Virus record (IMG/VR): IMGVR_UViG_3300044700_000003
Span: 1-20,156 of that record
DNA length: 20,156 nucleotides
DNA from: a virus
Strand: one strand, 5' to 3'
A model generated the notes under the pieces. That model ran no database searches and had not been told where the DNA came from. It saw only the letters and a program-made list of their open reading frames with translations. Below, piece after piece: positions 4,134 to 20,156 of this stretch (positions are counted from its first letter, which is position 1; each line of letters starts with the position of its first letter). Position numbers and translations under genes: made by a program.

Positions 4134-4141
4134 CGCACATG
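4123..4141 (+). promoter_or_regulatory. Strong ribosome site for the tail tube gene
   Basis: AGGAGA at 4123-4128 lies 10 bases before the ATG at 4139. Most genes here have no such site and depend on coupling, so a strong site in front of the tube protein fits its need for many copies. It is kept at 18336-18341. Confidence 0.7.
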
Positions 4142-4549: not shown

Positions 4550-4585
4550 AAACAGCCGGCAACGGCCCGACACGAAAGCAGGCAC

Positions 4586-4879: not shown

Positions 4880-4986
4880 CAGAAATGCTGGTAGCAGTAG
4901 GATGGTGGCCAACGCACATCGAGTTTGACACACGCGACCTCACTACGGTGATTAGTGTTATAGAAAAGAACAACAAGAACAGGTGA
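4586..4986 (+). CDS. Tail assembly chaperone, -1 frameshift fusion (gpGT-like)
   Basis: Reading 88 codons to 4849, slipping back one base and reading on from 4849 gives a 133-residue protein ending at TGA 4984-4986. The added 45 residues include RRQLAEMLVAVGWW and THIEF, closely like the T-domain segment of other phage chaperones, which binds tube subunits. The -1 frame has stops at 4828-4833, so the shift must occur between 4834 and 4879. The 112 bases 4829-4940 are identical in the second copy, including silent sites, as expected for an overlapping two-frame signal. The downstream part has an ATG at 4885 without a ribosome site, so separate translation is unlikely. Confidence 0.85.
4837..4849 (+). 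promoter_or_regulatory. Double -1 ribosomal slippery site
   Basis: Two overlapping X_XXY_YYZ heptamers lie in the zero frame: A_AAC_CCA at 4837-4843 and A_AAC_CCT at 4843-4849, sharing one A. Both lie inside the short window where a -1 shift would join the two chaperone frames. I could not identify a clear downstream stem by eye. They are unchanged in the second copy (19050-19062). Confidence 0.8.
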
Positions 4987-4992
4987 GTTTCT

Positions 4993-5481: not shown

Positions 5482-6875
5482 TGCTGTCTATTCCGATCAT
5501 CTCAGAGTTTGACGGCAAAGGCATTGACAAAGCCATTAAGCAATTTAAGCAACTAGAAACCGTAGGCGAAAAAGCACAGTTTGCTATTAAAAAGGCTGCC
5601 GTACCTGCTGCTGCTGCGCTTGGTGCAGTCACTGCGGCTCTTGGTGCTGCGGTGGCTGCAGCTGCAGAGGATGAAGCACAAGCGGCAAACCTTGCGTTGA
5701 CATTAAACAACGTCACTGGCGCAACAGAGAAACAGGTCAAAGCAACTGAGGACATGATTAGCGCTATGTCAAGGGCTACCGGCACAGCTGACAGCGAGTT
5801 ACGCCCAGCGCTGGCAGTACTTGTGACTGGCACAAAAGACATTGCAACAGCAACAGAGGCATTGTCATTGGCGCAAGATATTGCTATTGGGTCTAACAAG
5901 TCACTTGCTGAGGTTTCTGATGCGCTAGCAAAAGCGTATGGTGGCAACATGAAAGGCCTACAAGCCTTGTCACCAGAGATTAAAGCCATGATCAAAGACG
6001 GCGCGACACTCGATGAGGTGATGAATGTCTTAGGCGGCACGTTTGGTGGTGCAGCCGCAACCGCAGCAGATACCGCTGCAGGTCGTTTTAAGATACTAAA
6101 AAACTCGTTAGACGAAACTAAAGAGTCAATCGGCGCGGCTTTGTTGCCAGCCGTGGAAAAGGTGTTGCCGTTTTTGCAAAAGTTTGCAGATTGGGCACAA
6201 AAAAACCCTGATGCATTTATAACTATTGCTGGCACAATTTCAACGGTCGCATTAGCAATTATGGCAGTTAACTTTGCAATGGCAGCAAACCCATTTACTT
6301 TAATTGCAACAGGCATTGCAGTTGTTGTAACTGGTCTAGCAATTGCTTACACAAAGTTTGAGGGTTTCCGTAACATTGTTAATAATGTTTTTAATGGAAT
6401 TATGGCAACTATGGAAGTGTTTGTAAACGCTTTTAACACAGTGTTAAACAGCATTATTTCTGCATACAACTTGGTTAACCCGTTTAACGACATTCCACTT
6501 TTGTCAACTAACGTCAATTTGCCACGCGCAAGTGGCAGTAGTAGTGCAGCGGCCGTTGGGTCTGGTGCAGCGCGTGAGGGCGGTGTAGGTCAAGTGTTGG
6601 CAAGTATGCCGTCTATGCCTAGCCCGTCAGCACCATTGGCTTTAGCACCATCGTCTAGTGGCGGTGGCGGTGGCATTTCTAAAGGCAGTCAAGGGCCCGG
6701 CTATAAAGCAGGTGCAAGCGGCAACAAGTTTGGCGGTGGCGTTGACGTGCAAGGCGGTTTCAGCATTAACATTTTTGGTGGCATTTCTACCAGCGCAGAA
6801 ATTGGCAAGTCTGTTGTTGACGCAATAGCCCAATACCAACAGGTTTACGGCCCAGTCAATTTTGCAACGATCTGA
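5481..6875 (+). CDS. Tape measure protein
   Basis: The 464-residue product is by position and composition the tape measure, which sets tail length and passes into the host envelope during DNA entry. It starts with an amphipathic helix region with an Ala-rich stretch (residues 40-65), continues with helical segments typical of the family (KGLQALSPEIKAMI, FKILKNSLDETKESIGAAL, residues 158-220), has a hydrophobic segment at about 245-290 able to span the membrane, and ends in a Ser/Gly/Pro-rich low-complexity part (350-425). At about 0.15 nm per residue the tail would be near 70 nm, at the short end for siphophages and in keeping with a minimal genome. The long frame on the opposite strand is a shadow of its Ala codons. 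Confidence 0.88.
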   Translation: MLSIPIISEFDGKGIDKAIKQFKQLETVGEKAQFAIKKAAVPAAAALGAVTAALGAAVAAAAEDEAQAANLALTLNNVTGATEKQVKATEDMISAMSRATGTADSELRPALAVLVTGTKDIATATEALSLAQDIAIGSNKSLAEVSDALAKAYGGNMKGLQALSPEIKAMIKDGATLDEVMNVLGGTFGGAAATAADTAAGRFKILKNSLDETKESIGAALLPAVEKVLPFLQKFADWAQKNPDAFITIAGTISTVALAIMAVNFAMAANPFTLIATGIAVVVTGLAIAYTKFEGFRNIVNNVFNGIMATMEVFVNAFNTVLNSIISAYNLVNPFNDIPLLSTNVNLPRASGSSSAAAVGSGAAREGGVGQVLASMPSMPSPSAPLALAPSSSGGGGGISKGSQGPGYKAGASGNKFGGGVDVQGGFSINIFGGISTSAEIGKSVVDAIAQYQQVYGPVNFATI

Positions 6876-6877
6876 TC

Positions 6878-8131
6878 ATGCCCGGCTCAACTGTAATTAC
6901 TGGTGGCACATACCTTTTAGAGTTGTCTAGCGGTTATGACGGTGAAGCATTTTATTTAGACCAGTCACAGTTAAACGGCCCTGACGTACTTGACGGTGAC
7001 GGCGAGGACTACAACGACATTACTAACGTGGTGCAAAACATCACTATTAATCGAGGCCGCCACAAACCGTTAGACGTATTTGGGCCCGGCACAATGTCTG
7101 TGTCAATCAGCGTGCCAGTAGGCAACCGTGACTATGACCCGTTAAACACATCTAGCGTTTATTACAACACGTTGACAGATCAACCGGGTCTAGCGCCATT
7201 GCGCCCAATCAGGCTAAGCCGTAACGGTGAGTACCTTTTTACAGGCGTAGTGACTACGTTTAACCAGACTTACAACATGGCTGGAATGACCACTTACAGC
7301 ATTTTTGCTGCCGATAACACTTATGTGCTTTCGCAAGGCTTTTTACCTGAAACCGCCACTACCAGCCAAACCTCATCAGCGCGCATTACAGCCGTTTTAA
7401 GCGCTGCAACCTACACGGGCGCTACATCCCTTACCGCTAGCCCTGTAGCCACGCTAGGCGCTTACACCATCCCTAGTGGCACAAACGTAAACGCTTACAT
7501 AAACCGCATACAACAGGCTGAACAGGGCCGCATATTCTGTAGTCGAGCAAACGTGCTGACCGCCCAACCGCGCATTGGCACAACCCTTGAGCCGGCTACA
7601 GCCACATTTAACGACACTGGCACAGCCACACCGTATGACGCAGTGTTTGTAGAGTTTGACCAGCAATCAGTTGTAAACAATGCCGACATAACGATTGAGT
7701 CTGGCGGCACATTACAAAACGCCAACAACCCTGCCTCAATTGCACAATACTTTACGCAAACTGAGGCAATTACAGACAGCCTGCTCTCAAGCAACGCGCA
7801 AGCTGCCACACTGGCTAGTTACTTGCTTTATCCAATTCCGCGCCCACGTTTTACCAGTGTGTCAACCACATTTGCCAGCCTTACCGATGCCCAAAAAACG
7901 GCGTTAGCGCCTATAGAAATTGGTCAAACTGTGTCAATTACTAAAACGTTTGCATCTGGCACACCGTTAAGCGTCAACCAAGACCTATCGGTAGAGGGCA
8001 TAGATCACGTCATTGACATGAACACAGGCCACCGCATGACCTTGTGGACATCGCCAACAGTCATCCTTGATCAGTTCATACTTGATGACATTACGTTTGG
8101 TGTGCTATCTACCACGAACGCGCTCGGTTAA
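6878..8131 (+). CDS. Tail hub / baseplate minor tail protein
   Basis: The 417-residue product follows the tape measure by two bases, where distal tail and hub proteins are encoded. Near residues 50-120 it has the combination found in many actinophage minor tail proteins: INRGR, then a GPGTM strand, then NRDYDPLNTSSVYY, then a PIRLSRNGEYLFTGVV strand. This suggests the gp27-like hub fold that closes the tube and carries the fibres. The remainder is Thr/Ser-rich and beta-like. No catalytic motif for cell-wall cleavage is seen. There is no ribosome site, so translation probably depends on the upstream gene. It occurs only once in the window. Confidence 0.7.
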   Translation: MPGSTVITGGTYLLELSSGYDGEAFYLDQSQLNGPDVLDGDGEDYNDITNVVQNITINRGRHKPLDVFGPGTMSVSISVPVGNRDYDPLNTSSVYYNTLTDQPGLAPLRPIRLSRNGEYLFTGVVTTFNQTYNMAGMTTYSIFAADNTYVLSQGFLPETATTSQTSSARITAVLSAATYTGATSLTASPVATLGAYTIPSGTNVNAYINRIQQAEQGRIFCSRANVLTAQPRIGTTLEPATATFNDTGTATPYDAVFVEFDQQSVVNNADITIESGGTLQNANNPASIAQYFTQTEAITDSLLSSNAQAATLASYLLYPIPRPRFTSVSTTFASLTDAQKTALAPIEIGQTVSITKTFASGTPLSVNQDLSVEGIDHVIDMNTGHRMTLWTSPTVILDQFILDDITFGVLSTTNALG

Positions 8132-8145
8132 GGTAAAGTCTAATT

Positions 8146-8823
8146 ATGGGAGCAAACGCGCAAACCTCAGTACCACTATTTGTGGCAAACAGTGTGCTTA
8201 CTGCAGCACAACAAAACATTAGTGCGGCAACTGGCGTGCCAGTTTTTGCTACAACTGTTACTCGAGATGCAGCGTTTGGTGGCAGTAACAAAGCATTGGC
8301 AGAGGGCCAGCTTTGTTACCTTGAATCTACGAATGTCGTGCAGCAATATAACGGTACGGCATGGGAAACTGTCGGGCCCGGCGCAAGCAAAATTGCCCAA
8401 GTAGTTGTTGCACAAACAAACACATCTTTTTCTACAAGTTCAGGCACATATGTTGATGTCACTGGCTTGTCAGCAACTATTACGCCTACAACAAATACCA
8501 GCAAAATACTTGTAATGTTTACGGCAAATGTAAGCGCAAACTCGTCAAACATGATTATTAGTTGTCAACTTGACCGAAACGGTACAGCAATTCCAGGTGG
8601 CGGCGGCTTCATTTCCCTAACAAACGCAATGTTTGTTGCTGCTAATGCTTTTGAAATAAACGCAATGGCAATAAATTATCAAGACAGCCCTGCTTCTACA
8701 TCTGCTTTAACTTACAAAATACAAACCTACACAAACGGCGGAACTATCTATTTTTTCCGAAGGTCAGACACAACAACAGTTTCCAGTTTTGGTTCATTAG
8801 TTTTAATTGAGGTATTAGCATGA
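8146..8823 (+). CDS. Tail fibre / receptor-binding protein
   Basis: The 225-residue product has an N-terminal part common at fibre and spike attachment regions (RDAAFGGSNKALAEGQLCYL, then VVQQYNGTAWETV at residues 64-76) and a C-terminal jelly-roll-like beta part (TSKILVMFTANVSANSS, then CQLDRNGTAI). It is probably the main host-recognition protein. From about 8400 the DNA is clearly richer in A and T (three 60-base samples gave 37% G+C) than structural genes such as the terminase (53% in one sample), suggesting an exchanged module. A GGTAAAG element at 8132-8138 is the likely ribosome site. The stop overlaps the next gene as ATGA (8820-8823). Confidence 0.7.
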   Translation: MGANAQTSVPLFVANSVLTAAQQNISAATGVPVFATTVTRDAAFGGSNKALAEGQLCYLESTNVVQQYNGTAWETVGPGASKIAQVVVAQTNTSFSTSSGTYVDVTGLSATITPTTNTSKILVMFTANVSANSSNMIISCQLDRNGTAIPGGGGFISLTNAMFVAANAFEINAMAINYQDSPASTSALTYKIQTYTNGGTIYFFRRSDTTTVSSFGSLVLIEVLA

Positions 8824-9137
8824 TTGACTACGCGCTTATTTTGACAAACAAATATTCTGGTAAACAGTGGTCTTTAACAGGCGATTTATATGAAGGTCTT
8901 GATTGGTTAGATAGCACACCAAAACCGACACAAGCCGAACTAGACGCACAATGGCCAACAGTTGACTACGAAAATAAATATGCACAAGTAGAAACAACAC
9001 GCCGCACACAATACGAAGCACAATCAGACGGTCTATTTTTTGAATGGCAACGCGGCACAAACACCCAAGCCGCATGGGAAGCCGCAGTGCAAGCAGTTAA
9101 AGATGCGAACCCGTACCCGCCTAATCCTGCTGGCTAG
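8820..9137 (+). CDS. Tail-fibre-associated (assembly / XkdW-like) protein
   Basis: The 105-residue product starts in an ATGA overlap with the fibre gene. It contains KPTQAELDAQWPTVDYENKY, the Lys-Pro-Thr-x-x-Glu-Leu-x-x-x-Trp-Pro pattern common in small phage proteins encoded next to tail fibres (XkdW-like or fibre-assembly types), followed by an Arg/Tyr-rich helix and a closing Trp-containing helix (AAWEAAVQAVKDANPYP). The usual role is helping fibre trimers fold or attach, which I infer here from linkage. Base composition is A-rich like the end of the fibre gene, so the pair was probably acquired together. Its last codons overlap the lipoprotein gene. Confidence 0.55.
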   Translation: MIDYALILTNKYSGKQWSLTGDLYEGLDWLDSTPKPTQAELDAQWPTVDYENKYAQVETTRRTQYEAQSDGLFFEWQRGTNTQAAWEAAVQAVKDANPYPPNPAG

Positions 9138-9264
9138 TGTCGTGCTCGCATTTGTCCTGACCGCCTGCGAAACAACACGAACCAACGCCCCACTCAAAGT
9201 ACGAAACACCGCTCTGACACGTTGCTCGACTATTCAACAATGCGAAAGAGTAGCCAATGACTAA
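9103..9264 (+). CDS. Small phage lipoprotein, 53 aa
   Basis: From ATG 9103 the product has a basic start (MRTRTR), a hydrophobic stretch (LILLASVVLAFVLTA) and a lipobox LTAC with Cys22, a textbook lipoprotein signal peptide. About 31 residues with one further pair of Cys remain after cleavage. An in-frame ATG at 9040 would bury the signal peptide behind 21 polar residues, so 9103 is preferred. The gene overlaps its neighbours on both sides. It lies between fibre genes and a holin-like gene, so an envelope-disruption role (outer spanin-like) or blocking of superinfection are both possible. The first would imply a host with an outer membrane. Only the lipoprotein nature is well supported. Confidence 0.65.
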   Translation: MRTRTRLILLASVVLAFVLTACETTRTNAPLKVRNTALTRCSTIQQCERVAND

Positions 9265-9532
9265 ACAACCTGCAGAAATAGAACACTTACACGCGCGCAT
9301 GATCGTCTTTGTTGGCTGCACAATCGCAGTCACCTTTGCACTTACCGTTATAGGTTTTGTTTACGGCCTGCTATTTGTGACACAGCCGCTAGAGCAATCA
9401 CCAAATGATGCACAATTTATTGATCTGCTGTCAACGCTTACAGTGTTTATGACTGGCACGTTGTCTGGTCTAGTTGCTGCTAACGGATTAAAACGAAAGC
9501 CTGCTGATGGCAATACTGCCAGCCAACCCTAA
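9257..9532 (+). CDS. Putative holin, two transmembrane segments
   Basis: The 91-residue product has hydrophobic segments at about 15-41 and 54-76, a short polar loop between them (EQSPNDAQ) and a charged Lys/Arg C-terminus, so both ends are probably cytoplasmic. The second segment contains FMTGTLSGLVAANG, similar to small actinophage membrane proteins found beside endolysins. It overlaps the lipoprotein gene by 8 bases and the endolysin gene by 26, a tight lysis-cassette arrangement. A holin forms the membrane lesion that lets endolysin reach the wall. The assignment rests on topology, size and neighbours. Confidence 0.65.
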   Translation: MTKQPAEIEHLHARMIVFVGCTIAVTFALTVIGFVYGLLFVTQPLEQSPNDAQFIDLLSTLTVFMTGTLSGLVAANGLKRKPADGNTASQP

Positions 9533-10028
9533 AGTCATTGGGTCTAAGCCGTACACAGGCAACAGTGACGGTGCATCTGCAGGCGAACGTGCTGGCATGG
9601 ATGAATGGATACGGCAAGCCATTAAGCACGGCGGCGGCGCGTTTTGGAATAACGGCAGTTGGGGTGTGCGCGATATGCGCGGCTCAACAAACTTAAGTGT
9701 GCACGCCACTGGTCGAGCAGTTGACTTGTCTTACAGGCCGTCAGAAAAACAGCCAACAGCCAACCGTAAAGGCACAATGGACTTTTTTAACATTGTCACT
9801 GCTAACGCAAACGAGTTAGGTCTTGAGTGCATTCTTGACTACCTACTCAAACCATACGGTCGAGGCTGGCGGTGCGATCGTCAAGCGTGGTCAAAGTATT
9901 CCAAGCCAACAATCCACGGTGCGCCGGGTGGCGATTGGTTACACATTGAGATAAACCCACAGATGGCAGACGCTCCAAACCTTGTAAAACAAGCGTTTCA
10001 GAGGGTATTCACCGAATTGCCACAGTAG
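9507..10028 (+). CDS. Endolysin, peptidase M15-like (D,D- or L,D-type)
   Basis: The 173-residue product has the zinc-ligand pattern of M15 peptidases: SVHATGRAVDLS (H66 and D73, the HxxGxAxD signature) and WLHIEI (H146, with E148). Such enzymes cut peptide stems in peptidoglycan and serve many phages as endolysins. There is no signal peptide, so export would rely on the holin-like gene that it overlaps. No separate wall-binding domain is visible, so it is a compact single-domain enzyme. The start at 9507 is inside the holin gene without a strong ribosome site. Whether it is a carboxypeptidase or an endopeptidase cannot be told. Confidence 0.82.
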   Translation: MAILPANPKVIGSKPYTGNSDGASAGERAGMDEWIRQAIKHGGGAFWNNGSWGVRDMRGSTNLSVHATGRAVDLSYRPSEKQPTANRKGTMDFFNIVTANANELGLECILDYLLKPYGRGWRCDRQAWSKYSKPTIHGAPGGDWLHIEINPQMADAPNLVKQAFQRVFTELPQ

Positions 10029-10030
10029 TG

Positions 10031-10062
10031 CCCTATGGTGGAAACACCGGCGATAAGGGAGA
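10031..10062 (+). promoter_or_regulatory. GNRA hairpin covering the ribosome site of the next gene
   Basis: GGTG (10037-10040) and CACC (10045-10048) close a GAAA tetraloop. Outside this, CCCTAT (10031-10036) can pair with ATAAGGG (10053-10059, one bulged A) across an internal GGCG. The outer 3' arm contains the GGG of the ribosome site AAGGGAGA (10055-10062) for the gene at 10069. The fold could therefore limit translation or mark an mRNA end after the endolysin. There is no T-run. Confidence 0.5.
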
Positions 10063-10068
10063 TGCAAT

Positions 10069-10248
10069 ATGGCAGATGCCAAAACATACGTTTATGAGGT
10101 TTACACCACAAGACTTGACACAGAGCAAATGGTGTTAATACAAATCTTTCGTGACCCTGAAACAGACAAAGTGCTACACGCGCAATTGGCGTTTAAGAGC
10201 GCTGTCGGTGACAGTTGGGGCACGCCTTACCAATTGGAGAAAAAATGA
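10069..10248 (+). CDS. Small unknown protein, 59 aa
   Basis: The frame from ATG 10069 to TGA 10248 has a good ribosome site (AAGGGAGA ending 6 bases upstream) and ends in an ATGA overlap with the transglycosylase gene, both strong signs that it is translated. The product is beta-prone and charged (TYVYEVYTTRLD, VLIQIFRDPETDKVLHAQL), with a likely two- or three-strand sheet and no membrane segment. I do not recognise the family. Lying between two cell-wall enzymes, it may belong to the lysis functions or simply be an accessory gene inserted there. Confidence 0.7.
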   Translation: MADAKTYVYEVYTTRLDTEQMVLIQIFRDPETDKVLHAQLAFKSAVGDSWGTPYQLEKK

Positions 10249-10730
10249 GTTACTTAGCCATCAAAATAGGTGCATGGGCAATTAGTGGTTTAGCGGCGTT
10301 TACGTTGCTTTGGGGGGCTAGTAAGCCGCCTGAGAGGCAACTACAGCCGGGTGAGCAGATCACCACAACCCTGATCAGCATTGTGCCTACGTTGCCAGAA
10401 ACAACTACAACCACAACTGAAGCGACTAAAGGCTGTGCACAATACGTCGCTGACGCAATTACGGCAGGCTGGCCAGCAGACCAAGCACCCATGCTTGCGC
10501 GCGTGATGTTTAGAGAGTCAAGGTGCACACCAACCGCCTACAACGGCAAAGACATGGCAGGCGGTTCATACGGGCTAATGCAGATCAATGGCCAACATAA
10601 AGAGTGGCTAATTAAGCAAGGTTTCATAACCAGCCTTGACGATCTATTTGTGCCGTCAGTCAATCTCAAAGTCTCAGCACACCTCTACAGTATTGTGGGC
10701 TGGTCAGCGTGGGCAAGTACACATGGCTGA
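10245..10730 (+). CDS. Membrane-anchored lytic transglycosylase (SLT / lysozyme-like)
   Basis: The preferred start is ATG 10245 (GGAGA 4 bases upstream and ATGA overlap) rather than an in-frame start at 10215. The 161-residue product has an N-terminal membrane segment (about 3-24), a Thr-rich linker with six consecutive Thr (about 39-60) and a transglycosylase domain with the catalytic-type Glu in FRESRC (E91), the SYGLMQIN block (108-115) and a late SAHLYSIVGWSAWAS helix. This family cleaves glycan strands. Together with the M15 peptidase the phage would attack both parts of peptidoglycan. The anchor and linker suggest action outside the membrane. It may serve lysis, or wall opening at infection if packaged. 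Confidence 0.78.
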   Translation: MSYLAIKIGAWAISGLAAFTLLWGASKPPERQLQPGEQITTTLISIVPTLPETTTTTTEATKGCAQYVADAITAGWPADQAPMLARVMFRESRCTPTAYNGKDMAGGSYGLMQINGQHKEWLIKQGFITSLDDLFVPSVNLKVSAHLYSIVGWSAWASTHG

Positions 10731-11001
10731 TATTCCATATCCCGAAACTGGCATAAGCCAAGAAACTAGAGACAAAATGTATCCCGAAACCTACAGCGAC
10801 AAATACAACAAAGTATTTAAAACGTTTATTGATGACATCTTTAGACCAAACCACGTTCCAAAACCTGACGAGCCTGACCACTCAATTTTAATTGACGAAT
10901 TAGAGCTGCTGCATGAAGCACACTTAACGGTCGGTGGCCAGCAAAATAGGTTTAATGCCGCAGTTATTAGAAGCGCCATAAATGTTATACGCGCCCTGTA
11001 A
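10723..11001 (+). CDS. Hypothetical protein, 92 aa
   Basis: From ATG 10723, overlapping the previous stop by 8 bases, the product is acidic at first (ETGISQETRDKMYPETYSDK) and ends in a helical Leu/Ala-rich part (IDELELLHEAHLTV, then FNAAVIRSAINVIRAL). No catalytic motif, signal or membrane segment is visible. An in-frame start at 10636 lies deep inside the transglycosylase gene and is not preferred. A four-helix or helical-hairpin fold is plausible. I do not recognise the family and assign no function. Confidence 0.6.
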   Translation: MADIPYPETGISQETRDKMYPETYSDKYNKVFKTFIDDIFRPNHVPKPDEPDHSILIDELELLHEAHLTVGGQQNRFNAAVIRSAINVIRAL

Positions 11002-11134
11002 AGCGTGCGGTCTTACAATGCACGGCACTCGATACCGGCACAACCCCGAAAAAGTCTTATGGTTGCACCCCAGCCTAAAAGCGTGTAGTAAGGTCAAACC
11101 AATATTCCCGACTAAGAGAAAGAACCCGACATGA
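10982..11134 (+). CDS. Small Cys/His (zinc-finger-like) protein, 50 aa
   Basis: This short frame begins inside the previous gene and ends in an ATGA overlap with the winged-helix gene (11131-11134), a coupling that supports translation. The product has CKAC near the start (C6, C9), then HGTRYRH, then WLHPSLKAC, giving two Cys plus His and a further Cys able to bind zinc, followed by a basic tail (KPIFPTKRKNPT). Such mini zinc-binding proteins are common in actinophages, mostly of unknown role. Nucleic-acid binding is possible given the basic tail but is inference. Confidence 0.6.
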   Translation: MLYAPCKACGLTMHGTRYRHNPEKVLWLHPSLKACSKVKPIFPTKRKNPT

Positions 11135-11496
11135 GTGATCAACTAGAAATGTTTACAACCACACTGGGATTGGCTGGAGAACGCACGCAAGTTGCGTTAA
11201 ACCATCCAAGTGTTGCCATTGCGCGCAACGCACCAGACACGTCACGCGAGGCAGGCGAAGCAGCCAAACCACACGCAGGCAAACAACGCGAGTTAGTGCA
11301 CTTTTGGATTAAATGGTCTGCGCGCACAGAGGCTAAAGGCATGACCGCAGACGAAATAAGTGTGCTACTAGAACTACCTGCACAATCTGTGTCAGCGCGC
11401 ATAAACGGTCTGCATCGAGACGCGTACATTGTTGACAGTGGCATTAGGCGCAAAACACGGTACGGCCGTAACGCCATAGTTTGGGTGGCTTGCTAA
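11131..11496 (+). CDS. Winged helix-turn-helix DNA-binding protein
   Basis: In the 121-residue product, residues 70-97 (MTADEISVLLELPAQSVSAR, then INGLHRD) form a clear helix-turn-helix, followed by a wing (IVDSGIRRKTRYGRNAIVWV). The upstream APDTSREAGEAA segment is shared with many actinophage proteins of this type. It may regulate transcription, or, as no separate small terminase is seen, recognise DNA for packaging. The sequence does not decide. The stop overlaps the next start as TAATG (11494-11498). It is one of only a few nucleic-acid-related genes. Confidence 0.7.
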   Translation: MSDQLEMFTTTLGLAGERTQVALNHPSVAIARNAPDTSREAGEAAKPHAGKQRELVHFWIKWSARTEAKGMTADEISVLLELPAQSVSARINGLHRDAYIVDSGIRRKTRYGRNAIVWVAC

Positions 11497-12026
11497 TGGC
11501 ACACTTTGACCTAAGCCTTTATGAGACAGTTGCACAACGCTTAATGCGATGGTGGACAGAATACCCAGACGGCCGCATCATCACATCAATCCACCACTAT
11601 GACGGCTCAACAATTATTATGCGCGCAGAGTGTTACAACAACGATGACCGACTTATTGCCACAGGCTATGCAGAGGAGGTATTTGGCAACAGTCCAGTCA
11701 ACAAAACCTCGTTTCTAGAGAATTGCGAAACCAGCGCAATTGGGCGTGCGATCAGTAACAGCCGTATTGGGCACACAGGCGAGCGCGCATCATCCACAGA
11801 AATGGAAAAGGTTAACCGCATCAACCGCGCACCGGCTAAACCAGACAGTCACGGCAGCGCTACACCTAAGCAGATTGGGTTTCTTAAGTCGCTTGCGCGT
11901 GGTAAAGGCTGGGATGATCTGCAGCTGCTCGAATACATCCACCGCTTACTACAGGTTGATGATTGTGTAGTTGAGACACTTACCGCTGGGCAATGTTCAG
12001 CCGTCATAGATGGGCTAAAAAAATGA
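11496..12026 (+). CDS. Annealase / ERF-like recombination protein (tentative)
   Basis: The preferred start is ATG 11496 in TAATG overlap; a TTG 15 bases earlier is less likely. The 176-residue product has an N-terminal part with YETVAQRLMRWWTEYPDGRI, an ATGYAEE strand and FLENCETSAIGRAISNSRIG (73-92), the Glu-Thr-Ala/Ser-x-Gly-Arg-Ala block seen in phage proteins placed near ERF/Rad52-type single-strand annealing proteins. A second part after a polar linker begins TPKQIGFLKSLARGKGW and is helical. If right, it would support recombination or host-dependent replication. Homology to a proven annealase cannot be shown by eye. Confidence 0.45.
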   Translation: MAHFDLSLYETVAQRLMRWWTEYPDGRIITSIHHYDGSTIIMRAECYNNDDRLIATGYAEEVFGNSPVNKTSFLENCETSAIGRAISNSRIGHTGERASSTEMEKVNRINRAPAKPDSHGSATPKQIGFLKSLARGKGWDDLQLLEYIHRLLQVDDCVVETLTAGQCSAVIDGLKK

Positions 12027-12196
12027 GAAACCCTAACGATGAGTACGACCGCTTACACGATCACATGACAGCGATTGCGCGCGAGCGTGACAACTCAAAC
12101 CAAATTATTAAAATGCTGAAAAAACAATTAGAGGAATTAGAGGATGAGCTTGTGTTGGCGCATGAGGCATTAGCGCGCAGGTATACAAGACCATGA
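12023..12196 (+). CDS. Small coiled-coil protein, 57 aa
   Basis: ATG 12023 lies in an ATGA overlap with the previous gene, and the stop is in turn an ATGA overlap (12193-12196). Residues about 15-50 (ARERDNSNQIIKMLKKQLEE, then LEDELVLAHEAL) have heptad-like spacing of Ile/Leu and many Glu/Lys, a likely coiled coil. It is a candidate oligomerising partner, for instance of the DNA-binding protein nearby, or a reduced small terminase. Neither role is supported beyond position. Confidence 0.6.
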   Translation: MRNPNDEYDRLHDHMTAIARERDNSNQIIKMLKKQLEELEDELVLAHEALARRYTRP

Positions 12197-12270
12197 GCCG
12201 GCACGTTTGGCTGGCATTGGCTTTAACAGTGTTATGCGCTGCGCTTATGGTGCGATCTGATAAAAAGTAA
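12193..12270 (+). CDS. 25-residue single-span membrane microprotein
   Basis: The frame starts in an ATGA overlap and ends at TAA 12268-12270. The product has a basic start (MSRH), one hydrophobic span (VWLALALTVLCAALMV) and a charged end (RSDKK). Coupling to the previous gene and the compact membrane topology argue for translation, but no second copy of this part of the genome is in the window to test conservation. Possible roles include antiholin-like or membrane signalling peptide. None is proven. Confidence 0.45.
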   Translation: MSRHVWLALALTVLCAALMVRSDKK

Positions 12271-12329
12271 GACCTACACAATCGGCTAGTAACCGGATAC
12301 CTAAGCCTGTCGCAGGGCGGTTGGATGAT

Positions 12330-12343
12330 CTGCGGTAACGCAG
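12330..12343. repeat. Perfect 5-bp hairpin with GNRA-type loop
   Basis: CTGCG (12330-12334) and CGCAG (12339-12343) enclose GTAA. It is the strongest stem in the main gap and would form a stable RNA hairpin. There is no T-run after it, so a terminator role is unlikely. Confidence 0.5.
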
Positions 12344-12501
12344 TTAGACCAGCGCGCACAAAACCTGCTACACGAAAGGCTAAATGCAAAGCGTTGGGGC
12401 GAGTCATAAACATAATTGACTGATGTGCAAGGTAATCGGATTGAGGCAGCCCGATGGGTAGAGCATCATCACTCTGTCTCGACTCACACATACAGTTGAC
12501 A

Positions 12502-12507
12502 TACACT
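12502..12507 (+). promoter_or_regulatory. Candidate -10 element before terminase leader
   Basis: TACACT fits the TAnnnT pattern of actinobacterial -10 boxes. Transcription would start near 12514, about 24 bases before the leader peptide ATG. No good -35 is found at the usual distance (TCGACT at 12479-12484 is poor). A TTGACA at 12496-12501 is too close to serve this box. The call is tentative. Confidence 0.25.
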
Positions 12508-12537
12508 TAACAAACCGACACAAAGGACAAGCCCGAT

Positions 12538-12597
12538 ATGCAACGTCAACAACAGCAAACGAGAGCAAGCCGCTTGCGGCGCGGTAGCAATGGGTAA
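12538..12597 (+). CDS. 19-codon leader peptide overlapping the terminase start
   Basis: ATG 12538 is preceded by AAAGGA (12522-12527, 10 bases away). The product is 19 residues, rich in Gln and Arg (MQRQQQQTRASRLRRGSNG), and stops at TAA 12595-12597. The terminase ATG at 12590 lies 5 bases before this stop and has no ribosome site of its own, so ribosomes ending the leader could restart on the terminase. A hairpin at 12565-12577 lies within the leader. Translation is likely from the layout but is not proven by a second copy. Confidence 0.4.
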   Translation: MQRQQQQTRASRLRRGSNG

Positions 12598-14344
12598 AGA
12601 ACACAGCAACCCTGAGTACAAACGCAACCGGGCCATAATCCTGCAAGGCAAGCCAACGTGCAATTACTGCGACAAACCAGCAGACACCGTTGACCACATC
12701 GTTGCGTTAATGAACGGTGGCGATCACGGCTTAGACAATCTGCAACCATGCTGCGCGCAATGCAATAACCGCAAAGGTCACAGAGAGGTTGCACAACGCA
12801 ACCGATCAGTAAGCCACGCAAGAGCAGAAGCAATGCGAAATCATGCGACACCGATGCCAAAAGCAAAAGAGTTTTTTTATGAGAAACAAAACATCACCCC
12901 GACCCAAGTCTTGTCTATCCCAACTGGCCCTAACCAGCCCCAACTGGCAGCGATCGGTCACGCACGGCCACGATTAGAAACATCGAGACCAGATCATGTA
13001 GGTTCGTTCGCGCCGCAAGTTAGGGAATGGGCCAGCGAGCATCTAAATGTGCAGTTGATGGATTGGCAGTACACCGCGCTTGATGGTCAGCTGCTTTACG
13101 ATAAAAACTTTGAGTTAGTTAACCGTGTAAGCCTTGTTTCTACGGCGCGCCAGTGCGGTAAGACCACTGCGCTAACAGCTCTGATCGGTTGGTGGCTGAC
13201 AGAGATGCCTAAGATACGCGGCAAAAAACAGACCGTGCTATCTACCGCGCACCGGCTCGATCTGGCAGTAATGCTTTTTGACGAATTGTCACCGATCTTA
13301 GAGTCACGTTTTAACGCAACCCTAATGAAATCATACGGGCGTAACAGAGTAACAATGCCAGACGGCTCAACTTGGCTGGTGCGCGCTGCCAACAATTCTG
13401 TGGGTCACGGCACTAGCCCATCGCTGGTAGTGGCCGATGAAATGTGGGATATTTCGCGCGAAGTCATAGACGGCGGACTCTTGCCGGCTCAACGTGCACA
13501 AGTTTCACCGCTTTTGTCTATGTGGTCAACCGCTGGCACAGAGGCATCAACGGCAATGTTGCGTTGGCGTGAGCAAGGTTTGCGCGCCATTGACACAGGC
13601 AAAAACGCATCGTTTTATTTCGCCGAGTGGAGTCCGCCACCAGACATAAACCCGATGACACCAGAGGCATGGGTCTACGGCAACCCTGCTTTGGGCATAA
13701 CTCTTACGCCTGAAACATTGCTGGCAGAGTCTGAAAACCCTGATCGAGCAGCCTTTTTGCGCGCCAGTTGCAACCTATGGGTTGCGTCAGATAAGTCATG
13801 GATACAGCCGGGTCAATGGCCTGCCCTGCAGTATGACGGCGAGATACCTGACGGCGGCACGGTAGCCATAGAGACCAGCCTTGATGACACACGCTATTTT
13901 GCGGTGCGTTGCGTGGCTTTACCTGATCGGCGTACTGTGGCAACAGTCGAGTTTGTTGCAGACACTTTTAGCGAAATGTTGAGCCATGTTGAGCGCCTAT
14001 GCGCCAACCCACAGATCAAGTTTGCAATCACGCCAACGGTAGATAATCACTGGCCGTTATCGCTAGAGCGCCGCCGTGTTGTGGTGGGCTACGGCGAAAT
14101 ACTCAAGTTTACGCCATCAGTCAAAAACATGATTAACGAAAAGTTGCTATGGCATGACGGCAGCAACCAACTTGCCGAACACGTCAGCCGCGCCGTAGCA
14201 GTCAGATCACAAAACAGCATTGCGCTATCTAGCCAACGATCACCCGGCCCAATTGAGTTAGCGCGCTGCATGGTCTGGGCAGCAGCTTTAACCAGCAGAC
14301 CCACGTCATCAGGCAAACCTATGCTCGTGGTTTCTAACGGCTAA
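12590..14344 (+). CDS. terL: HNH endonuclease fused to large terminase
   Basis: The 584-residue product begins with an HNH nuclease domain: CNYC (C24, C27), VDHI (D35, H36), LDNLQP (N50) and CCAQCNNRKG (C55, C58, N59) give the four zinc Cys and catalytic His/Asn. After a linker (about 70-140) comes the terminase motor with Walker A-like STARQCGKT (184-192), Walker B SLVVADE (278-284) and coupling motif STAGT (313-317). The C-terminal RNase H-type nuclease is less clear, with E428, D432 and D485 as candidate metal ligands. In many HK97-like phages a separate HNH protein works with the terminase in cutting DNA; here the two are one chain. No small terminase gene is evident. The product pumps DNA into the head through the portal encoded next. 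Confidence 0.87.
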   Translation: MGKEHSNPEYKRNRAIILQGKPTCNYCDKPADTVDHIVALMNGGDHGLDNLQPCCAQCNNRKGHREVAQRNRSVSHARAEAMRNHATPMPKAKEFFYEKQNITPTQVLSIPTGPNQPQLAAIGHARPRLETSRPDHVGSFAPQVREWASEHLNVQLMDWQYTALDGQLLYDKNFELVNRVSLVSTARQCGKTTALTALIGWWLTEMPKIRGKKQTVLSTAHRLDLAVMLFDELSPILESRFNATLMKSYGRNRVTMPDGSTWLVRAANNSVGHGTSPSLVVADEMWDISREVIDGGLLPAQRAQVSPLLSMWSTAGTEASTAMLRWREQGLRAIDTGKNASFYFAEWSPPPDINPMTPEAWVYGNPALGITLTPETLLAESENPDRAAFLRASCNLWVASDKSWIQPGQWPALQYDGEIPDGGTVAIETSLDDTRYFAVRCVALPDRRTVATVEFVADTFSEMLSHVERLCANPQIKFAITPTVDNHWPLSLERRRVVVGYGEILKFTPSVKNMINEKLLWHDGSNQLAEHVSRAVAVRSQNSIALSSQRSPGPIELARCMVWAAALTSRPTSSGKPMLVVSNG

Positions 14345-14448
14345 CATCACATTGGCATCGGCTCGATGGCTTGCTTATCGTCGGGATACCGCATCGCATA
14401 CCGGGCCGATGCCACCACAAACCGCACGGACTGTGGCACACTCATAGC
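14345..14448. other. Terminase-portal intergenic stem-loop, second copy
   Basis: The 9-base arms GGCATCGGC (14354-14362) and GCCGATGCC (14405-14413) and the inner arms are kept without change. The first differences from copy one come just after the stem (14422-14428). Confidence 0.6.
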
Positions 14449-15567
14449 ATGGCATTTTTTAACAAAGTAACTAAAGCCGCTATTAGCCCACCAGCAGGCA
14501 AGGCCGCTGCAGCCGGCACAGGTTACACAGGGCCATATGCCCCGTCATCTAACAATGGCGGTGCTGCAATGGTTGGCGTTTACTACAACTACACAGAGGG
14601 CGAAGCACGCAACGCTGCAATGTCTGTGCCTACCGTTAGTCGAGCGCGCGACCTGATCGCATCGGTTATTGGCTGTATGCCATTACGGATGTATAACGAA
14701 ATGTGGAATGGCGATGAGATGGAGAAAATGCCATTAGCGCCGCGTACATGGTTGCGCCGTATTGATCCAACCGTGCCTAACAATTTTGTTTTGTCGTGGA
14801 CTTTTGATGATCTATTTTTTTATGGGCGCGCATTTTGGTACATCACATCACGCACCGCCGATGGTTTCCCAGCGTCATATACACGCCTGCCAGCCTCAAT
14901 GGTGCAGACCTTAGATCAGTCTGGCCCTGTCTGGTTTGCACCGTCTAAGCAGATCATTTTTAGTGGCGGCGAATTAAACCCTGATGACGTGGTGCAGTTT
15001 CTCTCACCTATTCAGGGCATCACGTCAATGTCGCAGCAGTCAGTTGCCACTGCGCTAAAACTTGAGGCTGCACGGTTTCGCAACGCATCAAGCGCTATCC
15101 CTGCTGGCATCCTTAAGCAGACTGGTGGCGAGCCGTTAAACGCACAAGAGTTAGCAGACCTTGCGTCAGCGTTTAACGCAGCGCGCATGACTAACCAGAC
15201 CGCAGCACTTAACGAGTATTTGTCGTACACAGAAACCAGCACTAGCCCAGACAAAATGCTGCTTATTGACTCTGCAGAGTTTCAGGCAATGGAAATGGCG
15301 CGCTTGTGCAACGTGCCACCATATTTGGTGGGCGTGTCGGTAGGCAGTTATTCCTACCAGTCGAGTAGTGAGAGCCGTGCCGATCTGTGGACATTTGGCG
15401 CTCGCGCTTATGCCGATTGCATAGCCGGCACACTCAGCCAAAACAATGTGCTACCTAACGGCACTTATGTCGAGTTTGATGTTGAGGGTTATTTGATGGG
15501 CGATTACAGCGAGCGTAACGAAATGGCACAACCTGAGTCTTACGATGAGGTACAGTCGCAATCATGA
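14449..15567 (+). CDS. Portal protein, second variant
   Basis: The 372-residue product is colinear with the portal at 236-1357. About 30 residues differ, clustered near residues 79-95, 130-150 and at the extreme C-terminus, where the last ten residues are almost wholly different. One codon is missing near residue 137. The start is set at ATG 14449. A TTG-initiated extension at 14371 would add 26 residues but is closed by a stop in the first copy and crosses the conserved stem-loop. The stop overlaps the next start as ATGA (15564-15567). The role is as for the first copy: the vertex channel for DNA. Confidence 0.87.
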   Translation: MAFFNKVTKAAISPPAGKAAAAGTGYTGPYAPSSNNGGAAMVGVYYNYTEGEARNAAMSVPTVSRARDLIASVIGCMPLRMYNEMWNGDEMEKMPLAPRTWLRRIDPTVPNNFVLSWTFDDLFFYGRAFWYITSRTADGFPASYTRLPASMVQTLDQSGPVWFAPSKQIIFSGGELNPDDVVQFLSPIQGITSMSQQSVATALKLEAARFRNASSAIPAGILKQTGGEPLNAQELADLASAFNAARMTNQTAALNEYLSYTETSTSPDKMLLIDSAEFQAMEMARLCNVPPYLVGVSVGSYSYQSSSESRADLWTFGARAYADCIAGTLSQNNVLPNGTYVEFDVEGYLMGDYSERNEMAQPESYDEVQSQS

Positions 15568-17150
15568 TTAAACTTATTGCATCACAGGTCACAATTGACG
15601 CTGCAGCTGGTGAGGCTGGCCGCCGTGAAATTACAGGCATTGCCGTGCCGTATGACGTTGCCGCGACAGTTTCTGATGGCACAACTGTGATCATAAAACA
15701 GGGCGCTTTGCCAGTTGATGGTAAAGCACCACGCCTTTACATGAACCATGACGCAACTAACGCCATTGGCATTGTTACAGAGCGCGTGGACACGCCAGAG
15801 GGCATGATGTTTACGGCCAAGATCAGCAAGACTCAAAGCGGCGATGAGGCGCTCATTTTGGCCCAAGACGGCGTTTTAGATTCAGTCTCAATCGGTATAA
15901 ATCCAGTCAAGTACACCACCGCAAAAGACGGCACAGTCACAGTGACTGCCGCCGACTGGATTGAGTTAAGCCTTGTGCCCGTACCAGCGTTTGCCGGTGC
16001 AATCATTACCGACATTGCAGCGAGTATCCCACAAGAAGAGCCAGAAATAAGTACTATAGAAACAGAACCTACACAGGAGACAGAACCCATGAGCGAAGCA
16101 ACCATCCCAGCAGTCGAGGCAACCATCCCAACTGCATCAATTTTTGCACAAGCAAAACGCAAGTTTGTTATGCCAACCGCCGCCGAATACATGGCAGCAA
16201 TGCACGCTGGCGGAGACACATTCCACAACGTCAACGCCGCCTACAAAGAGGCTGTGCGCGATCAGCAAACAGCATTGCAAGCAGCTGCAGGCGATGTGCT
16301 TACCACTGATACACCGGGTCTCTTGCCAGTGCCGGTACTTGGGCCAGTGTTCCAAGACCTTAACTTTGTAAGACCAGTTGTTAGCGCATTTGGTGCACGC
16401 GCAATGCCAAACACACCAAGCAAAACTTTTACACGGCCAACAATCACCACGCACACAAGTGCTGCAGCACAAACTGAAAACACTGCAGTAAGCGCAACCA
16501 CAATGGTGATTGCAGCAAACACTGTCACAAAAACAACCGTTGCAGGTCAAGTCACGTTGACAATGCAAGACATGGACTTTACTGATCCAGCGTCAATGAA
16601 CATCATCCTTAATGACCTTGCAGGCGAGTACCTGATTAAGACTGACGACATTGCAGCAGATGCACTTGTTGCAGGTAAAACTGCATCAGGCTCGACATGG
16701 ACTGTGACAGCCAATGACCCATCAAGTTTGATTGAATCTTTGTATGACGCAGCACGCGAAATTACTGAGGACAGCAACTACTTCCCAACACATTTGTGTG
16801 TATCGCCTGACGTTTGGCAAAAATTGGGAAGCCAGCTTGACGGATCGAAGCGACCAGTTTTGGGTTACACCACAGACGGTGTAGTTGGTCAAAACTCAAT
16901 TGGCCGCGTTGGTGGTTTGCAGTACACCGGCATGGATGTATTTGGTTTAACGCTGGTTGTTGATAACAACTTTGCAAACGGCACAATGCTTGTTGTTTAC
17001 GCACCAGGCTTTGAAATCTACGAGGCTCAACAGGGCGTTTTGTCAATTGCCAACCCATCTACGTTGTCGAGAACTTTCTCCTACTATGGATATTTTTCAA
17101 CGTTTGTTGCCAAGTCATCGTTTATTCAGGGCATCGTAATTGCTCCCTAG
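15564..17150 (+). CDS. Capsid protease-major capsid fusion, second variant
   Basis: The 528-residue product keeps the protease residues (His in the MNH segment at 62, Ser in SVSIG at 109, WIELSLVPVPA) and the capsid part. One Pro is added before the stop. Differences are spread through the protease part, and in the capsid part they cluster around residues 415-470, where about 14 of 57 residues change, likely an exposed region. The internal AGGAGA (16075-16080) and ATG (16089, codon 176) are unchanged in sequence and spacing. This supports production of free capsid protein from the same gene in both variants. Confidence 0.85.
   Translation: MIKLIASQVTIDAAAGEAGRREITGIAVPYDVAATVSDGTTVIIKQGALPVDGKAPRLYMNHDATNAIGIVTERVDTPEGMMFTAKISKTQSGDEALILAQDGVLDSVSIGINPVKYTTAKDGTVTVTAADWIELSLVPVPAFAGAIITDIAASIPQEEPEISTIETEPTQETEPMSEATIPAVEATIPTASIFAQAKRKFVMPTAAEYMAAMHAGGDTFHNVNAAYKEAVRDQQTALQAAAGDVLTTDTPGLLPVPVLGPVFQDLNFVRPVVSAFGARAMPNTPSKTFTRPTITTHTSAAAQTENTAVSATTMVIAANTVTKTTVAGQVTLTMQDMDFTDPASMNIILNDLAGEYLIKTDDIAADALVAGKTASGSTWTVTANDPSSLIESLYDAAREITEDSNYFPTHLCVSPDVWQKLGSQLDGSKRPVLGYTTDGVVGQNSIGRVGGLQYTGMDVFGLTLVVDNNFANGTMLVVYAPGFEIYEAQQGVLSIANPSTLSRTFSYYGYFSTFVAKSSFIQGIVIAP
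16075..16091 (+). promoter_or_regulatory. Internal ribosome site for capsid protein, second copy
   Basis: AGGAGA at 16075-16080 and in-frame ATG at 16089 lie at the same position within the gene as 1865-1881, inside a 99-base identical run. Confidence 0.7.
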
Positions 17151-17154
17151 TCTG

Positions 17155-17173
17155 TAGCGGACTTAGACCGCTA
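17155..17173 (+). promoter_or_regulatory. Hairpin at adaptor start codon, second copy
   Basis: TAGCGG (17155-17160) and CCGCTA (17168-17173) with the same 7-base loop as in the first copy. The capsid stop has moved one codon nearer, yet the element itself is unchanged. Confidence 0.5.
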
Positions 17174-17811
17174 TGGCCACATACACAACAGCTAGTAAAC
17201 AACTACTTTCTAACTATGCGTGCATCAGCACGCTTGAGGAAGCAGAAATTGTTGTTGGCGAAACCATCACCGTTAGTGGATTGGCTGCGCCATTCTCAGG
17301 CTCTTTTAAGGTGCTTGACTTACCGCAGTACGAGTTCACTGGCGTTGACTCAACCACAGGCGAGTTTCAATTTAACCCTGAAGTGGCTCGACCAAATCAG
17401 ATCATCTACGCGTGTACTGGCAGCGCCGTTAACTATGTAGTTGATTACTCAGGCAGTGTGGTGCATACACAAAACTGCACATGGGTCACGGTTGCCGAAC
17501 TGATCACCTACTTAGGCGTAACCATCACCAACCCGTCAGATGATTACACGCTTGCCACACAAGCACGCAACGCTGGCAACGATTTTTGTTATCGCCGTAG
17601 GCAAGAGTCAGGTTATTTTGACAGCCTTACAACGTCACCGGGTCACGATGTCACGCTAGGCACGCTGATGTATGCGGCAGCGCTGTGGCGTAGTCGAGGC
17701 AGCATAGAAACCGCTTATGCAGCGTTTGACACTATGGGCACGCCAACGCAACAGTCACTAACACCGATCGTTAAGCAATTGTTGGGCATCCCCCGACCAG
17801 CGGTTGCCTAA
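17173..17811 (+). CDS. Head-tail adaptor, second variant
   Basis: The product has the same length (212 residues) as the first copy. Residues 1-115 differ at about 36 positions, while 116-212 differ at two (V129T, A160V). The C-terminal gp6-like part, which must fit the portal and stopper, is thus nearly fixed, and the N-terminal beta-rich domain varies freely. No indels occur despite this. The stop overlaps the next start as TAATG (17809-17813). The division suggests either a more exposed N-terminal domain or replacement by recombination. Confidence 0.7.
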   Translation: MATYTTASKQLLSNYACISTLEEAEIVVGETITVSGLAAPFSGSFKVLDLPQYEFTGVDSTTGEFQFNPEVARPNQIIYACTGSAVNYVVDYSGSVVHTQNCTWVTVAELITYLGVTITNPSDDYTLATQARNAGNDFCYRRRQESGYFDSLTTSPGHDVTLGTLMYAAALWRSRGSIETAYAAFDTMGTPTQQSLTPIVKQLLGIPRPAVA

Positions 17812-18179
17812 TGCCCGCACCATACACCGACCTACTGAACGAGGCCATAGACGATGTAGCAGCCACGCTGACAGCCGTAAGTGGCTTGCGCGTGGTCACT
17901 GACCCAACTCGATTAGTTCCTAATTGCGTTTTCCTACTTGCGCCAAGTTTTACGACCTACGGCGGTAACGGCAACATTGTGACTATGGATTTCCCGCTTA
18001 AAGTTGTTGGGTCTGGGCCTGCAGGTCTGCCAGTGTTGCGCGAGATTTTAAGCATTGTCGCATTGGTGCTGGCATCTAAAGTCATCGTGCTATCTGGTCA
18101 ACCGGCATCTATTGAAATTGGCGGCGCATCATTTCCGTGCTACGACTTGACAATAAAAGTGCAGGCACAGACCGCATGA
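17811..18179 (+). CDS. Probable tail terminator, second variant
   Basis: The 122-residue product is colinear with 3598-3966. Changes are few and lie mainly at residue 33, near 50 and at about 90-105 (KVIVLSGQPASIEIGG against AVIVLDGRPGSIDIGG). It keeps the ATGA overlap with the small gene that follows (18176-18179). The assignment rests on position, as for the first copy. Confidence 0.5.
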   Translation: MPAPYTDLLNEAIDDVAATLTAVSGLRVVTDPTRLVPNCVFLLAPSFTTYGGNGNIVTMDFPLKVVGSGPAGLPVLREILSIVALVLASKVIVLSGQPASIEIGGASFPCYDLTIKVQAQTA

Positions 18180-18346
18180 TCTACACAATTGCATCTACCA
18201 AACTTGGCATTATTGGAGACCCTTATTTGCCAGCTGACGGCATTAACGTGGCAGCGCTATTGTCTGGCGGTTTCATTGTTGAGCAATCCACACCTAAACC
18301 CAAAAAACCTGCTAAAACTAGTACAGAACCCAACGAGGAGATTTAA
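18176..18346 (+). CDS. Small conserved structural-module protein, second variant, 56 aa
   Basis: The frame starts in an ATGA overlap and stops at TAA 18344-18346. It matches the 56-residue product at 3963-4133 except for V18L and N49S. A longer in-frame start at 18137 lies inside the previous gene and is not preferred. Unchanged length with mostly silent base changes supports translation. The function is unknown. Confidence 0.75.
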   Translation: MIYTIASTKLGIIGDPYLPADGINVAALLSGGFIVEQSTPKPKKPAKTSTEPNEEI

Positions 18347-18351
18347 CCCAC

Positions 18352-18762
18352 ATGGCTACCAGCACCTACCTATCTAACCCAGTAGTCACCGTTAATGCCG
18401 TTGACCTGACAGATCAGACCAGCGCGTCAACCCTGACTCGCGTGATCGAGGCGTTAGAGAGCACATCGTTTGGCAAGACCGCACGCGTCTATGTTGGCGG
18501 CCTAGAAAACAGCACGTTGACTTTGACGATGTACAACAGTTTTGCCGCCACAGAGACTTATGCAACTTTGGCTGCACTTGTAGGCACATCCACAACGGTG
18601 ACAATTAAACCAACCAGCGCGGCAACCAGTCCAACAAACCCAATCTCAACTTTGACAGGCTGCTACCTAGAAACCTTGCCAATTGTGAACGCCGCATTAG
18701 GCGCGCTAGACACAATTGACATCACGTTTACTGGTGGCGTTTACTCAGTCGCAACGTCTTAA
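18352..18762 (+). CDS. Major tail (tube) protein, second variant
   Basis: The 136-residue product differs from the first copy at three residues only, although the DNA carries more silent changes. This is the low protein divergence expected for a subunit that must polymerise. Its strong ribosome site AGGAGA (18336-18341, 10 bases upstream) is kept. It is followed by the same 36-base spacer before the chaperone gene. Confidence 0.75.
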   Translation: MATSTYLSNPVVTVNAVDLTDQTSASTLTRVIEALESTSFGKTARVYVGGLENSTLTLTMYNSFAATETYATLAALVGTSTTVTIKPTSAATSPTNPISTLTGCYLETLPIVNAALGALDTIDITFTGGVYSVATS

Positions 18763-18798
18763 AAACAGCCGGCAACGGCCCGACACGAAAGCAGGCAC

Positions 18799-19092
18799 AT
18801 GAAAGTTAAATTAGAATTAGACCTACAAGACGGGCGCGGCAAGCGCACAATGACTACAAATATGTTTGTGGTATGTGAATGGGAAAAACTAGAAAACCGC
18901 AAAGTCTCTGACGGCAAAGGTATCGGCTACAGCGACATTGCTTGCTGGGCATATCACCTATGCAAGCTGGCTGGTGACACCGTGCCAGACAACTGGCGCG
19001 AATGGGTTAAACAGCATCCCAACATGGATTTAACTTCAGTCGATGAGACAAACCCAAACCCTACAGCGTTGGCACTTACCGAAGACAACTAG
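18799..19092 (+). CDS. Tail assembly chaperone, short form, second variant
   Basis: The 97-residue product differs at two residues (T15K and T65N) from the first copy. It keeps the zero-frame stop at 19090-19092 and the slippery region upstream of it. The role is as for 4586-4879: coating the tape measure during tail assembly. Confidence 0.85.
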   Translation: MKVKLELDLQDGRGKRTMTTNMFVVCEWEKLENRKVSDGKGIGYSDIACWAYHLCKLAGDTVPDNWREWVKQHPNMDLTSVDETNPNPTALALTEDN

Positions 19093-19199
19093 CAGAAATG
19101 CTGGTAGCAGTAGGATGGTGGCCAACGCACATCGAGTTTGACACACGCGACCTAGTTACGGTGATTAGTGTTATAGAAAAGAACAACAAGAACAGGTGA
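18799..19199 (+). CDS. Tail assembly chaperone, -1 frameshift fusion, second variant
   Basis: A -1 shift at 19050-19062 gives a 133-residue fusion ending at TGA 19197-19199. The T-domain segment (AEMLVAVGWW, THIEF) is identical to the first copy up to the DL/T change near residue 119. The window 19042-19153 is identical in bases to 4829-4940, including silent positions, as expected where two frames and a frameshift signal overlap. Confidence 0.85.
19050..19062 (+). promoter_or_regulatory. Double -1 slippery site, second copy
   Basis: A_AAC_CCA (19050-19056) and A_AAC_CCT (19056-19062) in the zero frame, identical to 4837-4849. Confidence 0.8.
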
Positions 19200-19205
19200 G
19201 TTTCT

Positions 19206-19694
19206 ATGACAGTCAACACAACAATTCAGGTGGCTGGCGTAAAAGAAACTATTAACGCACTCAAAAAAATTGACCCGCAACTGCAAAAAGACTTCAGGAC
19301 AAAAGCCAACGAGATTGCACGGCCAGCAATTAACGCTGCAAAAGACGTTTACACGCAAGTGCCGTTGTCTGGTATGGCATACAAGTGGTCTAGTCGAGGC
19401 CGCCAATTGTTTCCGTTTAGCGTGGCTAAAGCCAAGAACGGTGTCAAGTTGCGTATTGACACCCGGCGCAATGCTGTAGGCGTAATCCTGATTGAGCAAA
19501 AAGACCCTGCAACAGCAATCTTTGAGACTGCAGGCCGTGCTAACGCAAACCGTTTAGGCGATCAGTTAGGTTTTGTTGGCGCGGGTCGCACTCGACTAAT
19601 AGGGCCAGCCGTGTATAAAGCGCGGCGAGGTGTAGAGGCTGAAATGGAAAAGATGATTTTAGATACAGCGCGCACAGTTAGACAGGCAATGTAA
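19206..19694 (+). CDS. HK97 gp10-like tail-completion protein, second variant (tentative)
   Basis: The 162-residue product differs from the first copy at four residues (Q39R, S77N, D107E, I139V region). It has the same GGTGAG before its ATG and the same TAATG overlap with the tape measure gene (19692-19696). The unusual place between chaperones and tape measure is shared by both variants, so it is a stable feature of this phage type and not a local rearrangement. Confidence 0.5.
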   Translation: MTVNTTIQVAGVKETINALKKIDPQLQKDFRTKANEIARPAINAAKDVYTQVPLSGMAYKWSSRGRQLFPFSVAKAKNGVKLRIDTRRNAVGVILIEQKDPATAIFETAGRANANRLGDQLGFVGAGRTRLIGPAVYKARRGVEAEMEKMILDTARTVRQAM

Positions 19695-20156
19695 TGCTGT
19701 CTATTCCAATTATTTCAGAGTTTGACGGCAAGGGCATTGACAAAGCCATTAAGCAATTTAAACAATTAGAAACTGTTGGTGAGAAAGCACAGTTTGCTAT
19801 TAAAAAGGCTGCCATTCCTGCTGCTGCTGCGCTTGGTGCAGTCACTGCGGCTCTTGGTGCTGCGGTGGCTGCAGCTGCAGAGGATGAAGCACAAGCCGCA
19901 CAGTTGGCATTGACTTTAGGCAATGTCACTGGAGCTACAGAGAAACAGGTCAAAGCGACTGAGGACATGATCAGCGCTATGTCAAGGGCTACCGGCACGG
20001 CTGACAGCGAGTTACGACCAGCGCTTGCGGTACTTGTGACTGGCACAAAAGACATTGCAACAGCAACAGAGGCATTGTCATTGGCGCAAGATATTGCTAT
20101 TGGGTCTAACAAGTCACTTGCTGAGGTTTCTGATGCGCTAGCAAAAGCGTATGGTG
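19694..20156 (+). CDS. Tape measure protein, N-terminal part (cut by window edge)
   Basis: The frame is open from ATG 19694 to the window end, giving 154 residues that match the N-terminus of the tape measure at 5481. Differences are few (V41I, N70Q, N76G). The last 127 bases are identical to the first copy. The gene is incomplete only because the sequence ends, not through mutation. Confidence 0.88.
   Translation, partial: MLSIPIISEFDGKGIDKAIKQFKQLETVGEKAQFAIKKAAIPAAAALGAVTAALGAAVAAAAEDEAQAAQLALTLGNVTGATEKQVKATEDMISAMSRATGTADSELRPALAVLVTGTKDIATATEALSLAQDIAIGSNKSLAEVSDALAKAYG

Follow-up and report, generated by a model that had tools for sequence, protein, structure and literature searches.

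The stretch analysed here, called the window below, is 20,156 bases long, and its last 127 bases also occur, letter for letter, in its interior. This raises the question whether the window is the genome of a phage of at least 20 kb that carries part of its structural genes twice, or whether an assembler has walked through more than one genome before it stopped. We conclude that the record is almost certainly a lasso-shaped path through a de Bruijn graph, holding about 1.4 genomes of a 14.2-kb phage, and that it is not a 20-kb genome. All features described below lie on the plus strand.

Exact repeats in the window

A computation of maximal exact matches over the whole window reproduced what the first-pass annotation had reported from counting by eye, namely that positions 20030-20156 are identical to 5817-5943 in 127 of 127 bases, and that the bases preceding the match differ (A at 5816, G at 20029). 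The whole record is exactly 20,156 bases and does not extend further, so that the match reaches its true end. It is also the longest exact repeat and the only one of 127 bases or more, and no internal match of that length was found. The next ones are two of 112 bases (4829-4940 and 216-327), one of 99 (1828-1926, at an offset of 14,210), one of 95 (114-208), and then 80 and 63; the full list gave the four longest of these just as they had been counted, all below 127. Inverted matches of at least 18 bases are absent from the window.

The terminal repeat is the last part of a much longer and diverged one. Between copy 1 (1-5943) and copy 2 (14214-20156) the identity is 88.3%, with 3 gapped bases per side, and it is 88.1% upstream of the final 127-base run. 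Wherever else the alignment of the copies is cut, the terminal exact run never exceeds 112 bases, and in a block bootstrap of alignment ends none of 200,000 resamplings reached 127, although this is a crude figure since the blocks hold no run above 112.

Gene content

The window has the gene set of a tailed phage, with HNH-TerL, portal, a protease-capsid fusion, genes for the head-tail region and the tail, a tape measure and a transglycosylase-like gene. In the fusion, phrog_2263 and PF04586 fall within a single open reading frame (1354-2937). The duplicated part reaches from the TerL end into the tape-measure gene, which lies at 5481-6875 (open reading frame with PHROG tape-measure matches) and is cut by the junction at 5817-5943. 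Both copies are intact and open within one record, which is what a genuine genome of 20 kb or more would show if its head-tail module, from the terminase end to the tape measure, had been duplicated in tandem and then diverged. Such a genome would, on the other hand, have its second tape measure truncated at the very last base, as that copy starts at 19694, breaks off at 20156 and resumes at 5944.

The de Bruijn graph

The circle 5944-20156 and the other strain's sequence, 1-6890, were cut into k-mers and the graph was compacted; we call the circle strain B and the other sequence strain A. At k=127 exactly two unitigs result. The first, 1-5943 (5943 bases), is the strain A tail, with the TerL end, portal, protease-capsid fusion, head-tail and tail genes and the start of the tape measure. 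The second, 5817-20156, is a self-loop of 14,340 bases, that is a circle of 14,213 bp plus an overlap of 127 bases. Their lengths minus the overlap (5943 + 14340 - 127) give 20156, the length of the record. When the record's own k-mers are used instead, the graph at k=127 likewise consists of these two unitigs: a loop, and a tail that ends at the junction. A smaller k for the assembly was considered and rejected: at k=111 and below the record fragments into many pieces, because the 112-base repeats break the path, and at k=113 and k=121 there are again two unitigs, with a loop that closes 14 and 6 bases short of 20156, respectively.

The 127-mer at 5817-5943, inside the tape-measure gene, is in this graph a junction that is entered both by strain A (1-5816) and by strain B (14214-20029), and the terminal 127-mer at 20030-20156 is the second visit to the same vertex.

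Contigs of the same strains

Decisive here are other IMG/VR contigs that belong to these strains. L005 (IMGVR_UViG_3300046805_000022) runs through 19168-20156 and then directly on through 5944-9620, with no mismatches over 4,666 bases, and 5944 therefore follows 20156. L003 (3300044805_000001) covers 1-6890 with 2 mismatches and carries strain A past 5943, so that L003 and L005 both pass through the junction into 5944. L004 matches 14438-20140, within the strain B copy (14214-20156), at 99.8% and stops 16 bases before the junction. From these three contigs it follows that both strains share one continuation, and that strain B closes with a period of 14,213 bp; its single-copy circle is 5944-20156. 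The passage of copy 2 into 5944 in L005, closing the circle, argues directly against a true duplication.

The beginning of the record is of another kind. L003 starts 65 bases before position 1 of the window, in sequence equal to 14149-14213. At this start the match to strain B covers only the first 61 bases of the window, and counted from the start of L003 it is 126 exact bases, not 127, so there is no k=127 junction there and the start of the record at position 1 is probably a break in coverage.

The same length in related records

Related loci were taken from two scans of IMG/VR, the best 80 from each, with some overlap between the scans. At the end of L160 and at the starts of L161, L168 and L066, exactly 127 exact bases are joined to a diverged overlap that is 86-98% identical, and at k=127 each of these four records resolves into a loop with a variant tail, i.e. 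a lasso. Four others, L010, L156, L158 and L162, are plain circles with end repeats of 127 bp, and L007 is a plain circle with an end repeat of 99 bases. Some circular relatives show end repeats of other lengths, 124, 88 or 33 bases, and a run of 126 followed by a mismatch also occurs. Neither 124 nor 88 is known as an assembler k value.

Some over-length or circular relatives show other values: L159 (121 and 408), L163 (86), L146 (126), L078 (124) and L164 (88 bases). Three of them were tried as further cases of 127 and rejected, L163 for an overlap of 1,955 bp at 86.8% with a longest exact run of 86, L159 for a run of 121 at its end and one of 408 internally, and L146 for a repeat of 126. 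The record G011 (30,575 bp; loci L151 and L152) is twice the usual length, with three portal matches and two TerL matches. Its two TerL hits first suggested a second concatenation of two strains, which was rejected on self-comparison; it contains no long-distance exact match to itself of at least 25 bases, and its self-identity is only about 71% over 1.5 kb. None of 50,697 phage records searched at the nucleotide level matched the window.

The circular relatives are 13,531-14,574 bp long, most relatives have a single copy at about 13-16 kb, and the portal gene is single in nearly all whole related records of 12.7-16.5 kb. Together with L005, the circular relatives of 13.5-14.6 kb in effect refute a duplicated module, which we regard as very improbable. 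No more credit can be given to the two copies being one DNA molecule, a concatemer or a tandem prophage pair of two strains formed for instance after co-infection. Phage concatemers do exist, and the two strains have sequence in common on either side of the diverged block, but a concatemer gives no reason why the record should end exactly 127 bases past the last mismatch, or why the same number should recur in four other lassos, and neither an integrase nor a host flank was seen among the open reading frames and families examined. The least probable explanation of all is that 127 is a coincidence, the contig having run out of coverage somewhere in the sequence common to both strains. It is true that L003, L004 and L005 stop at places other than k-mer junctions, but the end of the record is exactly the one predicted by the k=127 graph, and L160, L161, L168 and L066 show the same 127. 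The start of L003, the stop of L004 and the odd lengths of some end repeats are compatible with coverage breaks or with other pipelines, but they are left without an explanation here.

How the record may have been formed

The lasso would have arisen as follows. The sample would have held at least two strains of one 14.2-kb tailed phage, and reads across joined genome ends would have let strain B close into a 14,213-bp circle of the graph. Between the TerL end and the start of the tape measure strain A differs from B by about 12%, and it would join this circle at the first 127-mer common to both (5817-5943). An assembler of the SPAdes type, with a final k of 127, would then put out the strain A tail, make one circuit and stop at the 127-mer when it was reached from the strain B side. 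A stop at the repeated junction 127-mer makes the last 127 bases repeat 5817-5943 at an offset of one genome length.

The unitig arithmetic and the sister records point to k=127 for this record; its assembler, and the presence of strains A and B as separate molecules within one sample, are also inferred. The maximum k of SPAdes is 127, and JGI runs metaSPAdes with k up to 127, whereas MEGAHIT is not limited to this value. The earlier statement that common de Bruijn assemblers go no higher than k=127 thus holds for SPAdes and fails for MEGAHIT. Its main idea, that a contig ending just when a 127-mer recurs reflects a closed strain-variant loop, has gained support from the k=127 graph, the join in L005, the four lassos and the four circles, and the interpretation of the record end as a loop closure at k=127 is well supported. 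The practical consequence is a corrected record, with a genome of about 14.2 kb and head-tail genes that are not duplicated; it should be trimmed to 5944-20156 and called circular.

The diverged block of the two strains

The head-tail genes of strains A and B have 88% identity over 5.8 kb, and on both sides of this block the strains are the same, for 126 bases upstream (positions 1-126 of L003) and for at least 1,074 bases from 5817 onwards (L003 for A, L005 for B). The junction may then also be a real edge of recombination, one strain having recently swapped its structural module by homologous recombination within TerL and the tape-measure gene. We put forward this reading of the sequences tentatively, giving it slightly less than an even chance, and contigs with a common false join would give an identical picture.

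A likely cohesive end within the terminase frame

A continuous HNH-TerL reading frame of 584 aa lies at 12590-14344 (phrog_9 TerL at residues 104-568, HNH at 10-79; PF01844). Within it, 22 of the 75 related loci that could be placed start exactly at 12908, a count in which a few contigs appear twice because the scans overlap, and four records (L148, L153, L155 and L157) have the homologue of 12897 as their last base. The ten bases in between, CCCGACCCAA at 12898-12907, are conserved. From the contig ends and this conservation, CCCGACCCAA is likely the 10-nt cohesive end (cos) of a linear genome, and 3' overhangs are likely because L148 and L157 are without the ten bases at either end. All 44 of the 44 loci examined that span CCCGACCCAA keep the frame open across it; the window is one of them, and at least one contig enters the count twice. 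A linear genome would have the HNH part at its right end and TerL at its left, and joining of the ends would fuse the two in one predicted frame.

In L025, L031, L036 and L088 the bases before CCCGACCCAA at the start are unlike the usual upstream sequence, being purine-rich or unrelated; these are possibly chimeric ends or the result of cohesive-end ligation. A literature search for a cos site inside a terminase gene found nothing usable. The likely cohesive end inside the HNH-TerL frame may be worth more than the assembly artefact that led to it.

Comparison with known systems

The phage resembles the small siphoviruses of actinobacteria, such as Microbacterium cluster EE (17.0-17.5 kb; PMC7302621), Arthrobacter cluster AN (about 15.5 kb) and Rhodococcus phage RRH1 (14,270 bp; both PMC5513430), in its tiny tailed-phage genome, its protease-capsid fusion and a similar gene order. 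The unit of 14,213 bp lies within their range of about 14-18 kb, and the maturation protease and the major capsid gene are fused. Concrete and MooKitty have two separate genes, HNH as the last one at the right end and the terminase as gene 3, whereas here one frame runs across the likely cohesive end. The capsid protein is only 31-39% identical to those of MooKitty and Concrete, over part of the protein. These relatives suggest an actinobacterial host.

As an artefact, the record is of a type that is already known. CheckV describes end repeats of k-mer length (55, 77 and 99) as well as contigs of repeated genomes in IMG/VR (PMC8116208). Its direct terminal repeats (Extended Data Fig. 3) are of the same nature as the repeat here, with a length equal to k where a circular path closes, but here the end of the record pairs with a site in its interior, since the circle is entered from the tail of a diverged strain, and a test of the start against the end would therefore miss the record. 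The repeated-genome contigs (Extended Data Fig. 9) are likewise records of more than one genome that were judged assembly artefacts; with copies that are only 88% identical, the k-mer frequency should be near 1 here, and the CheckV repeat check would probably not flag it. COBRA reports that metaSPAdes contigs broken at branch points share end sequences of maxK length (PMC10914622), and the overlap is the same in kind, although here it is found within one contig and not between two. Tests that compare only the two ends of a record, or that count identical k-mers, would overlook lassos of strains, but they can be detected by an exact match of length k between the record end and the interior, which revealed four more among the relatives that we fetched.
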